A DNA stretch of 64,000 nucleotides from Crocinitomicaceae bacterium (GTDB lineage Bacteria > Bacteroidota > Bacteroidia > Flavobacteriales_D > Crocinitomicaceae): assembly GCA_002709305.1 (NCBI GenBank), contig PAQM01000025.1, forward strand, positions 1 through 64,000. Direction: 5' to 3'. Of this stretch, positions 139-43,646 are shown in pieces. The stretch's first letter is position 1. Each line of letters opens with the position of its first letter. Below the pieces are notes generated by a model, which did no database searches, had not been told where the DNA came from, and saw only the letters and a program-made list of their open reading frames with translations. The position numbers and the translations under genes are program-made.

Positions 139-165
139 TTGTTACTAACTAAAAACCAAATTGTT

Positions 166-2718
166 ATGAAATATTTTCTATCCTTGTTAATATTAATTAT
201 AGGAATTTCTAATGTTTTTGCTAAAAGCATAGATACAGAAACAGCTAAAATAGTTGCTCGAAATTTTTTGAATATCCCTGAAAATTCTAATCTTGAATCA
301 GTATTCAACTCATCTAATATATCATATGATCAAACATCAGGAACTACGAACCAACAAGTTCTATTTCATGTTTTCAATTTACCATCTGATCAAGGTTTTA
401 TAATTATTTCAGGTGATGATAATATTTTTCCTGTTCTAGGATATTCTTTATCAGGAAAGTTTGATGAAAACAGTTTACCTTCAAACTTTAGAAAATGGAT
501 AGAGGGATATAAAAAAGAAATTCAATATATAATTGAAAATAGTATAAAAGCAACAAGTGAAATAGCAGAAAAATGGGAGGATTTAATAAAGGAGCCTGCA
601 TCACAAAATTCTAAAATGTCTGTTGGACCTCTTATTACATCAACCTGGGATCAAGGTGGTTATTATAATTCATCATGCCCTGGAGGATCTGTCACAGGTT
701 GTGTAGCTACAGCAATGGCCCAAATCATGAATTATTGGGAATACCCCTCACAAGGAACGGGATTTCATTCATATAATGAAAATGATTACGGAACTCTTTC
801 TGCAAATTTTGGAAGTACAACCTATCAGTGGGCATCAATGCCAAATAATGTCACTAGTCCAAATAACGCTGTAGCAACACTAATGTATCATTGTGGTGTT
901 AGCGTTGAAATGGATTACAGTCCACAAGTAAGTGGCGCATATGTTATTGAAAATAGCCCTACCCCAACAGCTTGTTCTGAATATGCTTTCACAACATATT
1001 TTAATTATGCTAACAGTGTACAAGGAGTAGAAAGAGTAAATTATAATACCACTTCTTGGATTCAACTTTTAAAAAGTGAACTTGATGCAGGTCGACCAAT
1101 TGAATATGCAGGCTATGGATCAGGTGGAGGTCACGCTTTCATTTGTGATGGATATGACAATAACAATTATTTTCATTTTAATTGGGGTTGGGGAGGTGCC
1201 TATGATGGGTACTTTTTGATAGATGCTTTAAACCCGAGTGGAACTGGAACTGGTGGTGGATCTGGTGGATATAATTCAGGTCATCAAGCAGTAATAGGAA
1301 TAGAACCTTCCTCAGGAAATCAAACATTTAATTTACAATTATACGATAATGTAACTCCTTCTAATAATTATATTTATTATGGACAATCTTTTAATGTATC
1401 GACAAATATTGCGAACTTTGGAGGAAATACTTTTAATGGTGATTATACTATTGCCATTTTTGATAACTCTTATAATTTTATTGAATATGTTGAAATACTA
1501 TCAGGGTATACACTTCAAGCGGGTAATTTTTACTCAAACAATTTAATCTTTTCTACAAATGGTATTCTTGGAATGCTACCTGGAACATATTATGCCAGCC
1601 TTTTTTATAGGCCTACAGGTGGAAATTGGATGCAAGTTTCTGATGGAAACTACTCTAACATAGCTCAGATTGATGTTGTTAATCCTAATGATATAGAGCT
1701 AAATTCTTCAATTATAATCACACCATCTAGCACCTTAACCCAAGGACAGCCAGCTTCCGTAAATCTGAATATTATAAATGATGGTTTGTCACCCTTTACA
1801 GGAGAGTATAAAGTTGGATTATATAATCTAGATGGTACATTTGTAGAAACAATTGAAACGATTGCTGAGCCCAACGGACTACCATCAGGATACACTTATC
1901 TTTCACCATTTTTAACATTTAATACAGCATCGGTAACAGCTAGTCCTGGCACATACCTTCTTGCTGTTGAACATAACCCAAATAATACGGGGTGGCAACT
2001 AACAGGATCAACTTATTTTCAAAACCCTGTATATGTTAACGTGGTGGCGCCACCTAACTCACCTGATATATACGAACCAAACAACACTGCTTCAACAGCT
2101 TATAACCTAGTAGCAAACTTTTCTAATAATAGTTCAACAATCTTAACAACAGGCTCAAATAATCATACTGGAAGTGACTATGACTATTATTCTCTTAATT
2201 TACCAAGTGGTTACGACTATATTATTACATCAAGAGTTCATGACTCATATAATAGTGGAAATGGCCAGATATATACTAATGATGTTTTATGGTCTTATTC
2301 TTTAGATGGTAATTGGTCAAATGCAATTGATGATATTATGTCATCTAACATCAATGTATATAATGGTGGTATATTAAACTTTCAGGTGGCTCCATACTTT
2401 CCAGGCCAAGAAGGAACTTATTTATTAGATATTCAAATATTTAGAATTTCTACTTCGGGAATTCATGATTTTAGTAATAACCAGAATATTAGAATTTATC
2501 CTAACCCAGCAAAAGAATATGTTCATATTGATAATATTGAGAAAGAACAAGTGGAAAAAATATTGTTAACAAATCTGTTTGGGGCAGTTATAGAAGAATT
2601 TAGACCAAATCAAGATAACTTTAAGATTCCCATTAATGAATTGTCTAGCGGTATTTACTACTTAACATTCATAACGAAAAGTGGAAAACTTCTCAAAAAA
2701 TTCGTTAAGTATGAATAA
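166..2718 (+). CDS. Secreted C10-family (streptopain-like) cysteine protease with T9SS type A tail
   Basis: The track starts at a TTG (139), but the ATG at 166 begins a clean signal peptide, MKYFLSLLILIIGISNVFA, giving 850 residues. A SpeB-type propeptide follows. The catalytic domain shows a candidate oxyanion-hole Gln near residue 163 (STWDQGG), the nucleophile Cys near 179 (TGCVATAMAQ), the catalytic His near 323 (GGGHAF) and the NWGWGG motif. The remaining half consists of beta-rich repeats. The last 80 residues are a T9SS type A sorting domain (RIYPNPAKEY, then GIYYLTF). The protein should cross the outer membrane through the type IX system and be released or anchored as a zymogen-derived endopeptidase. 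A small lipoprotein gene overlaps its 3' end. The family call is firm; the substrate is unknown. Confidence 0.93.
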   Translation: MKYFLSLLILIIGISNVFAKSIDTETAKIVARNFLNIPENSNLESVFNSSNISYDQTSGTTNQQVLFHVFNLPSDQGFIIISGDDNIFPVLGYSLSGKFDENSLPSNFRKWIEGYKKEIQYIIENSIKATSEIAEKWEDLIKEPASQNSKMSVGPLITSTWDQGGYYNSSCPGGSVTGCVATAMAQIMNYWEYPSQGTGFHSYNENDYGTLSANFGSTTYQWASMPNNVTSPNNAVATLMYHCGVSVEMDYSPQVSGAYVIENSPTPTACSEYAFTTYFNYANSVQGVERVNYNTTSWIQLLKSELDAGRPIEYAGYGSGGGHAFICDGYDNNNYFHFNWGWGGAYDGYFLIDALNPSGTGTGGGSGGYNSGHQAVIGIEPSSGNQTFNLQLYDNVTPSNNYIYYGQSFNVSTNIANFGGNTFNGDYTIAIFDNSYNFIEYVEILSGYTLQAGNFYSNNLIFSTNGILGMLPGTYYASLFYRPTGGNWMQVSDGNYSNIAQIDVVNPNDIELNSSIIITPSSTLTQGQPASVNLNIINDGLSPFTGEYKVGLYNLDGTFVETIETIAEPNGLPSGYTYLSPFLTFNTASVTASPGTYLLAVEHNPNNTGWQLTGSTYFQNPVYVNVVAPPNSPDIYEPNNTASTAYNLVANFSNNSSTILTTGSNNHTGSDYDYYSLNLPSGYDYIITSRVHDSYNSGNGQIYTNDVLWSYSLDGNWSNAIDDIMSSNINVYNGGILNFQVAPYFPGQEGTYLLDIQIFRISTSGIHDFSNNQNIRIYPNPAKEYVHIDNIEKEQVEKILLTNLFGAVIEEFRPNQDNFKIPINELSSGIYYLTFITKSGKLLKKFVKYE

Positions 2719-3239
2719 AATGTGTCTTCTGTATTATCTAATTTATTTGTGTTTTTTTTTTTTCTTGCTCTACAATAAAACTTAATAAAAACAACAATAA
2801 ATTAATAGATGAAATTAATAACGAATTTTCTGATATACAGCCAATAATAATATATAAAACAACATTGGATTATAGTAAAAATGTCCCTGTAATTCTTTCT
2901 AGTGACAAGTCAAAGATTATTTCATATCCAAGCCCAAAAGATGTTTTTTACAAGGAAAACTTTGCATATCCTACAAAACTAACAGATGGTTTTCTTATGG
3001 ATAATATTGGTATAAGCTGTAATTCAGCATATTTAAATTTAACACTTGAGGAATATAGTAAGTATGATGAAATCCCCTCTTTGGAAAATCTTTATAAAAT
3101 GATTATTGATAAAGACCCAATTAGTGATTATTATATTTGTAATGAACTTAGAAATATAATCAATGAAAATAATAATGTTAATCAAATCATAAAAAATAGT
3201 GGTTTAAAGAAATGCAAATGCTTAAAAAAACAATTATGA
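2711..3239 (+). CDS. Small lipoprotein, reading frame interrupted at a 12-T tract
   Basis: The track reports only the 3' part from a TTG at 2865, which is not a credible start. ATG 2711 (overlapping the protease stop by 8 nt) reads MNKMCLLYYLIYLC and then enters a run of 12 T (2752-2763), after which it stops at TAA 2783. Removing one T joins it in frame to FFFSCSTIKLNK and on to the 124-residue ORF, recreating a lipoprotein signal peptide with lipobox FFSC. The body has the motifs DYSKNVPVILSSDK and GFLMDNIGIS and ends with KKCKCLKKQL. I recognise this as a conserved Bacteroidota lipoprotein type without a known function. The break could be a real phase-variable slip site, a recent pseudogene or a homopolymer sequencing error. 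The adjacent protease makes an inhibitor or immunity role possible but unproven. Confidence 0.6.
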
Positions 3240-4546
3240 AAACACTACTAGTACTTTTACTATTAGTCCCAATGATGAGTTTTGGGCAACCAACAATTGA
3301 ATGGGAGACTACTTTTGGGGGCTCAGATAGCACATATAGTGATGCTGGATATTCAGTTAAACAAACTTGGGATGGAGGGTATATTGTTGCTGGAAGCACT
3401 GATAGACAATTACTAGGTTATTATAATTCTGATGGATTTTTAATTAAAACTGATGGATCTGGACAAGAAGAATGGTCACAAACCTATGGAGGAGATAATG
3501 ATGATGTAATAAGAGATGTTCAACAAACAAGTGATGGTGGATATATTTTAGTTGGAAGTACTGGCTCTCAAGGACTTTATTATCAAGTTTATTTAATAAA
3601 AACTGATGGTTATGGGCAAGAAGAATGGAGTCAAACTTTTGGAGGTGGTGGAGAAGATTTAGCTTACTCTGTTCAACAGACTTCAGATGGAGGATATATT
3701 ATTGTTGGACAATATGAACATTGGGGTATTAATGATTATGATGTTTGGCTTATAAAAACTAATGGAGCAGGACAAGAAGAATGGAATCAAAAAATTGGAG
3801 GCCCTAACAAAGATGTAGGTTTTTTTGTTCAACAAACAACAGATGGAAGTTATATTGTTTTAGGGGAAACAAGATCATTTGGAAATGGTAATACAGACAT
3901 ATATTTAATAAAGGTAAATAGTAATGGGAACATTATGTGGACACAGTTTTTCGGGACAGGTGGTGAAGAGTCTGGTTACTCTCTAGAAGAGACTTTGGAT
4001 GGCGGGTATATTATATGCGGTGAATCATCAGGAACCCAGCAGGTGCAGTCTGCATACATGATAAAAACAGATGAGAGTGGTATAGAAGAATGGAGTATTC
4101 TATTTGAGCAAACTTATATGTCGAGTTTGTCAAGTGTAAAACAAACTGCTAATGGTGGATTTATAGCAGCAGGATTTCTGAACACAAATAACAACTGGTC
4201 AGATATATATTTAGTTGAAACAGATGAAAATGGTATTGAACAATGGAGTCAAACTTTTGGTGGCTTGGAACCAGAACGTGCATATTCCGTTCAACAGACA
4301 ATTGATGGTGGCTATATTGTAACAGGTAAAACAAAGTCATTTGGAAGTAATGAATATGATATATATCTCCTTAAAACTATGTCTCTTGTAACATCAACAA
4401 ATAGTATCATCACTTCATCGTCAAATAAAAAACTAATAAAGATTGTTGATCTACTAGGAAGAGAGACACCATTTAAACCAAACATACCACTTCTATATAT
4501 CTATAATGATGGAACAGTGGAGAGGAAAATGATAATTAAAGAATGA
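3236..4546 (+). CDS. Secreted seven-repeat beta-propeller protein with T9SS-like C-terminal tail
   Basis: ATG 3236 overlaps the TGA of the lipoprotein gene (ATGA) and starts the signal peptide MKTLLVLLLLVPMMSFG; the track's start at 3212 is upstream of it. The core has seven copies of a roughly 52-residue unit built around xDGGYIxxGxT and YLIKTDxxGxExW, which fits a seven-bladed beta-propeller. The C-terminal stretch (KLIKIVDLLGRETPFKP, then DGTVERKMIIK) is shared with the LRR protein downstream and resembles a short T9SS sorting tail. It is probably a surface or secreted binding protein. The ligand cannot be read from sequence. The next gene also overlaps by ATGA, so the three genes look translationally coupled. 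Confidence 0.75.
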   Translation: MKTLLVLLLLVPMMSFGQPTIEWETTFGGSDSTYSDAGYSVKQTWDGGYIVAGSTDRQLLGYYNSDGFLIKTDGSGQEEWSQTYGGDNDDVIRDVQQTSDGGYILVGSTGSQGLYYQVYLIKTDGYGQEEWSQTFGGGGEDLAYSVQQTSDGGYIIVGQYEHWGINDYDVWLIKTNGAGQEEWNQKIGGPNKDVGFFVQQTTDGSYIVLGETRSFGNGNTDIYLIKVNSNGNIMWTQFFGTGGEESGYSLEETLDGGYIICGESSGTQQVQSAYMIKTDESGIEEWSILFEQTYMSSLSSVKQTANGGFIAAGFLNTNNNWSDIYLVETDENGIEQWSQTFGGLEPERAYSVQQTIDGGYIVTGKTKSFGSNEYDIYLLKTMSLVTSTNSIITSSSNKKLIKIVDLLGRETPFKPNIPLLYIYNDGTVERKMIIKE

Positions 4547-5705: not shown

Positions 5706-6542
5706 ATCAAAACACTTCTACTTACTTTACTATTAGTCCCAATGATGAGCTTTGGGCAGAATGTATATATACCTGATGCTAACTTTAAAGATTATCTTGT
5801 TGGTAACTCTGAAATAAACACAAATAATGATAATGAAATTCAAATAAGTGAAGCCAATTCTTTTGATGGTCAAATTCTAATATTTGAACAATACATATCT
5901 GATTTAACTGGCCTTGAGGCGTTTACTTCTTTAACCAAATTAATATTGCAGGATAATTCAATCTTCAATATTGATGTTAGTCAGAATATTGCTTTAGAAA
6001 TTCTAGTTTGCGCCGATAACTATCTCACGAGTCTTGACGTTAGTCAAAATATTGCTTTAACTAAATTATATTGCAATCAAAATCAAATAACAAGCCTTGA
6101 TGTCAGTAATAATATTTCTTTAACACTTCTGAGCTGCTTTTCAAATCAAATCACAAAAATAGATGTAAGTCAAAATACAAATTTGGAGGGTCTATCTGTA
6201 TCTAATAATCAACTCATTTGTTTGAAAATGGCAAATGGGAATAATATAAACATAGCTAATTTTGAAGCATTTTTGAACCCCAATCTTTCATGTATTGAGG
6301 TAGATGATGTGAACTATTCTACAATAAATTGGACATACATTGACACTCAACATTATTTTAGTAGCAACTGCAATAATTCTTGTCCAAATATTTCTAGCAA
6401 CAGCGAGCTAAACAATGCACCAAAACAACTAATAAAGATTGTTGATGTACTGGGTAAAGAAACACCATTTAAGCCAAATACACCCCTTTTGTACTTTTAT
6501 GATGATGGGACAGTGAAGAGGAAAGTGATAATTAAAAAATAA
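5706..6542 (+). CDS. Leucine-rich-repeat secreted protein with damaged or non-canonical start
   Basis: The track starts at an internal ATG (5742) inside a signal peptide. In frame upstream, from 5706, the sequence reads (I)KTLLLTLLLVPMMSFGQ, nearly identical to the propeller protein two genes back, but the expected ATG is ATC. No ATG, GTG or TTG lies between the stop at 5694 and that point. The mature part begins NVYIPDANFKDYLVGN, as in many Bacteroidota LRR proteins. About four 21-residue repeats of the type LDVSQNIALTKLYCNQNQITS follow, and then the shared tail KQLIKIVDVLGKETPFKPN. It may start at ATC, be mis-sequenced, or be expressed only as an unexported MMSFG form. Confidence 0.7.
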   Translation: MKTLLLTLLLVPMMSFGQNVYIPDANFKDYLVGNSEINTNNDNEIQISEANSFDGQILIFEQYISDLTGLEAFTSLTKLILQDNSIFNIDVSQNIALEILVCADNYLTSLDVSQNIALTKLYCNQNQITSLDVSNNISLTLLSCFSNQITKIDVSQNTNLEGLSVSNNQLICLKMANGNNINIANFEAFLNPNLSCIEVDDVNYSTINWTYIDTQHYFSSNCNNSCPNISSNSELNNAPKQLIKIVDVLGKETPFKPNTPLLYFYDDGTVKRKVIIKK

Positions 6543-43558: not shown

Positions 43559-43646
43559 AACATTTAAATTTCGCAAGTAACGGTTAATTAAACTTTGTAT
43601 CGATGAAGCTTAACCACCTATCACGCCATTTTTTTTTTTTACGATA

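Follow-up and report, generated by a model that had tools for sequence, protein, structure and literature searches.

A 12-T tract breaks the reading frame of a conserved, peptidase-linked lipoprotein gene in a Crocinitomicaceae genome

Analysis of a 64,000-nucleotide stretch of a Crocinitomicaceae genome (hereafter the window; contig 25, positions 1-64000) revealed a frame break at a run of 12 T in a lipoprotein gene that directly follows a C10 peptidase gene. The break is real, and it lies in a real, conserved and unannotated gene; this is not a chance arrangement, the T12 run disrupting a conserved frame. We put roughly even weight on one explanation: base composition gave rise to a slippery tract in the gene of a periplasmic, peptidase-linked lipoprotein, which stands one base out of frame, would be leaky through transcriptional slippage and would be revertible, without being a demonstrated evolved switch. 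The sequence-only reading, which had proposed a phase-variable surface lipoprotein, is partly supported: both the tract with its 24-residue stop and the conserved frame beyond it are present in the sequence. Tracts of this sort are familiar, and the useful part of the result is the gene: it belongs to a lipoprotein family that is widespread, lacks annotation and is tied to C10 peptidases.

Table 1. Coordinates of the tract, the broken gene and its neighbours in the window.
Feature	Position	Strand	Basis
C10 (streptopain-type) cysteine peptidase: I69/Spi-type prodomain, C10 catalytic domain, T9SS C-terminal sorting tail	139..2718	+	Pfam
Assembled 24-codon frame: ATG, signal-peptide start, T tract, premature TAA (2783-2785)	2711..2785	+	sequence
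T12 homopolymer within the signal peptide's hydrophobic core	2752..2763	+	sequence, genome-wide run survey
Lipobox Ser-Cys (FFSC), with +1 of the mature lipoprotein at Cys codon 2766-2768	2763..2768	+	homologue alignment
Mature lipoprotein, 157 codons, intact frame	2766..3239	+	36/43 family-conserved positions kept
Next gene, weak beta-propeller DUF5122 match	3236..4546	+	sequence, Pfam

In the assembled sequence the homopolymer counts exactly 12 T; it falls within the first 20 codons of the lipoprotein gene and sits at the frame break, so that its length sets the frame (Table 1). The ATG at 2711 and the stop of the peptidase gene before it overlap by 8 nt (ATGAATAA); translation from this ATG reads MNKMCLLYYLIYLCFFFFLLYNKT and ends after 24 residues. 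The neighbouring frame opens with TCT-TGC as ...SCSTIKLNK and meets no stop until the TGA at 3237-3239; at the base composition of the window, 157 stop-free codons would be expected in random sequence with p ~3e-6. Between an upstream stop (2739-2741) and a TTG at 2865, this frame contains no start codon except the rare-type ATT, and conserved residues 1-33 can therefore be translated only if both frames are joined. No stem that would mark an intrinsic terminator was found at the T run, and Rfam gave no match to a structured RNA.

The mature part belongs to a widespread, uncharacterised and unannotated family of Bacteroidota, as judged from sequence. A first search found matches to intact genes in 2 of about 100 relatives, and a wider one recovered 38 homologous loci in named genomes, with matches also in 8 genomes of the same family as the source; the hosts are labelled Bacteroidota, save a few labelled Chlorobiota or Ignavibacteria. 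No member gave a convincing Pfam or NCBIfam match, a profile search with the lipoprotein returned no convincing sequence match, and an AlphaFold2 model (mean pLDDT 86, pTM 0.77) matched no fold in the PDB (best E 0.76). In a leave-one-out test, intact homologues kept from 20/43 to 42/42 of the conserved positions; at 36 of 43 the window protein falls within that range, which indicates that the gene is undecayed. All the invariant residues (V40, D47, I51, Y54, P55, D59, D79, G82, P118) are among those retained. The genome has no second copy, 33 further genomes of the genus were searched and lack the gene, and the closest homologues come from other Bacteroidota groups. Its occurrence is sporadic, perhaps through horizontal acquisition.

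A hydrophobic signal followed by a lipobox Cys, as in an SPII lipoprotein, appears only in the product obtained by joining the frames on either side of the tract. Nearly all homologues carry a signal peptide with a lipobox, and in four (L105, L114, L125, L126) the signal peptide is apparently of a non-lipid type. The Ser-Cys of the window protein aligns with the lipobox Cys found in 92% of homologues, where variants include VFSC, FISC and VCC. The lipobox had been called perfect, and the Cys is indeed at the aligned position, but F-F-S-C deviates from the [LVI]-x-[GAS]-C consensus. Surface display had also been proposed and is unsupported. In Bacteroidetes, surface lipoproteins are exported by acidic residues at +2 to +6, e.g., K-(D/E)2, SDDDD or SDDFE (PMC5080379), and the window protein has none after its Cys (STIKL); acidic residues are likewise missing from +2 to +6 in 39 of the 45 homologue rows examined. 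Because this export signal is missing, the lipoprotein is predicted, more likely, to face the periplasm rather than to be exposed on the surface.

The lipoprotein gene is the second gene of a tightly overlapped operon headed by the C10 peptidase, whose domains were assigned by Pfam (PF13734, E 4.7e-23; PF01640, E 8.9e-60; PF18962, E 2.4e-13) and whose gene is the only C10 match in its own genome. The ATG of the next gene overlaps the lipoprotein stop as ATGA, and the end of that gene overlaps the following ATG at 4543; given these overlaps, the early stop in the lipoprotein gene could reduce translation of the downstream genes too. The pairing recurs: besides the window, a C10 gene lies within ~3 kb of the lipoprotein gene, upstream or downstream, in 20 of 38 independent loci. 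Where the C10 gene is upstream (n = 16), the two overlap by 4 nt (ATGA) in 9 loci and by 1 nt in 3. An isolate, Taibaiella chishuiensis (L126), is among the carriers of the pair. The remaining homologue loci adjoin unrelated genes, e.g., amino-acid permeases, and the link is frequent, not universal. Within the genus any C10 gene is rare, being present in only 3 of 34 congeneric genomes. Two window genes also share a similar tail (4430-4546 and 6440-6542; KIVD-LG-ETPFKPN-PLLY-Y-DGTV-RK-IIK), which has no Pfam T9SS match and is likely a variant T9SS sorting signal.

The tract itself is explained by composition: the codons for Cys-Phe-Phe-Phe-Ser are T-rich in a genome of 31% GC, where TTT makes up ~80% of Phe codons. 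At the window's composition, 0.85 A/T runs of at least 12 are expected per 64 kb, and 2 were seen. An intergenic T12 lies at 43629-43640. That relatives might share the tract is contradicted by some 45 homologue loci, in all of which the A/T run at this place is at most 8. The tract thus neither exceeds chance length nor is kept in homologues, as a selection-maintained tract would. The viral contigs contained neither tract-length variants nor the exact flank of the tract.

Across the draft genome (2.3 Mb, 29 contigs) we counted 73 distinct A/T runs of at least 10, about 40 of them coding. Some 38 of these are in frame at lengths of 10-11, which we take to mean that selection holds coding tracts to short, in-frame lengths and that the assembly reads runs of 10-11 well. 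The T12 tract is the sole run of at least 12 inside coding sequence, the others being non-coding or in leaders. A script had placed one more 12-run within an open reading frame (L042, HutH-like by inspection); it precedes the likely start. Six further tracts (L044, L047, L055, L067, L069, L072) first seemed out of frame, as candidates for tract-controlled signal peptides elsewhere in the genome, and were reassigned to leaders because the downstream genes have their own ATG after the tract. Among the leader runs, A12 (L067:1498) lies directly against the ATG of a ribosomal protein S16-like gene and A14 (L072:3013) against that of a gene for an exported protein; such long A runs could alter translation initiation. 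In two other genes the hydrophobic core of the signal peptide contains a T10 run that is in frame (L057:1501, L079:1508), as expected of Phe-rich cores in an AT-rich genome. On two contigs, one of them short (C29), an A10 run recurs with the same flanks and the same ORF lengths (L084:1506, L092:1509) and is probably part of a repeated element.

Frames are broken at coding runs of at least 10 in two genes only: the lipoprotein gene and a gene for a GH20 hexosaminidase (L058, G000:C12:52130-55140), which is split at an A10 run (L058:1509-1518) between the catalytic domain and the F5/8-type C-terminal part.

Homopolymer sequencing error had been named as the main rival. Gross miscalling is unlikely given the ~38 in-frame runs of 10-11, and no other gene of the window was seen to be broken at its 81 runs of at least 7 inside ORFs, a pattern unlike that of an error-prone homopolymer caller. 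An error confined to the T12, with the real tract in frame, keeps a minor share of the probability, and we consider it unlikely. In its favour, this is the longest coding homopolymer of a draft assembly, and the genome offers no in-frame coding 12-run against which accuracy at that length could be calibrated.

The composition-born, slippery tract that we favour would work as follows. The T-rich Cys, Phe and Ser codons of the signal-peptide core, in a genome so low in GC, form a long T run, which would mutate at a high rate during replication and cause slippage during transcription. The assembled genome shows the gene out of frame by one base; in this state most ribosomes would stop after 24 codons, while a fraction of transcripts would slip at the tract and encode the full lipoprotein; replication slippage would also revert the frame at high frequency. 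Many bacteria show selection against runs of ~9 A or T within coding regions, on account of slippage (Baranov et al. 2005, PMC1088944). With out-of-frame reporters, slippage by E. coli RNA polymerase was found to need at least 7 T, with poly-T preferred (Koscielniak et al. 2018, PMC6260861); deletion on T8 restored ~10% of control (in-frame) expression in E. coli, rising with length (PMC6260861). Since bacterial RNA polymerase makes such deletions on poly-T, the off state of the T12 gene should be leaky, and a poly-T frame break in an AT-rich genome should not be read as off unless transcripts have been checked. Against this explanation, the C10-lipoprotein pair is absent from the other congeners searched, and the gene could be dispensable and newly lost.

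A slip-strand switch, in which selection would favour tract-length changes that display the lipoprotein in some cells and not in others, was the central proposal of the earlier reading. What stands of it is the homopolymer frame break in the signal peptide of an undecayed gene, where replication slippage could shift the frame, at a position near the 5' end and at the only coding run of its length. As an evolved device, however, we judge it quite improbable: the tract is absent from all homologues, those of the same family included, its length is at chance level for the composition, RNA polymerase slippage on poly-T would blur the off state, the product is predicted to be periplasmic and not an exposed antigen, and no second tract-controlled lipoprotein was found in the genome. 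A recent fixed loss, with the frameshift as a genuine null allele in a gene that is beginning to turn into a pseudogene, could draw on the dispensability of the gene within the genus and on the second broken frame in the GH20 gene, but it is very unlikely, as the 157 codons carry no further lesion and keep their conserved positions, the peptidase partner is intact, and a T12 frameshift ranks with those that revert most readily and that slippage rescues best.

What the lipoprotein might do is suggested by its neighbour. Staphostatin-like inhibitors that protect the cell are the proposed products of small lipoprotein or periplasmic genes beside C10 peptidases in Bacteroides fragilis (PMC2873492). 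The locus resembles the SpeB-Spi and B. fragilis bfp-bfi pairs (PMC2873492) in having a small exported or lipoprotein gene directly beside a C10 peptidase gene, overlapping or nearly so, with an envelope location for the product. It differs from Spi/I69 in lacking a sequence match, and from the solved staphostatins in lacking a match of sequence or fold. The candidates we considered failed accordingly: the Spi (I69) profile PF13734 matches no member of the lipoprotein family, the I69 domain sitting in the peptidase itself; the model showed no PDB match for a staphostatin/Bfi-type lipocalin-like fold; and no staphostatin identity emerged from the profile search. We therefore describe the locus, by analogy, as arranged like a protease-guard pair and do not call the lipoprotein a staphostatin. 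Like Spi, staphostatins and Bfi, the lipoprotein may shield the envelope from the cell's own protease, and a testable role would be protection of the envelope while the protease crosses the periplasm before T9SS export. A broader version is doubtful, namely that this periplasmic family, with a fold new relative to the PDB, acts across Bacteroidota as the dedicated guard partner of C10 peptidases exported by the T9SS, often with coupled translation, and that in this species the T tract tunes its dosage cell by cell by slippage in replication and transcription.

Among known systems, contingency loci vary by slipped-strand change in a homopolymer; in Mycoplasma, for example, genes for surface proteins carry mononucleotide tracts close to their 5' end. 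The present gene shares with such loci a long 5'-proximal run in the gene of an exported protein, one base out of frame with the rest intact; it differs in that the tract is unconserved in homologues and of chance-level length, that the product is predicted to be periplasmic, and that the comparison covers one genome of the species. The second known system is slippage rescue of disrupted ORFs (PMC1088944, PMC6260861). There, poly-T favours deletion by bacterial RNA polymerase, as measured in E. coli and not in Bacteroidota (PMC6260861), and the present locus is alike in placing an A/T run of at least 9 exactly at the frame break.
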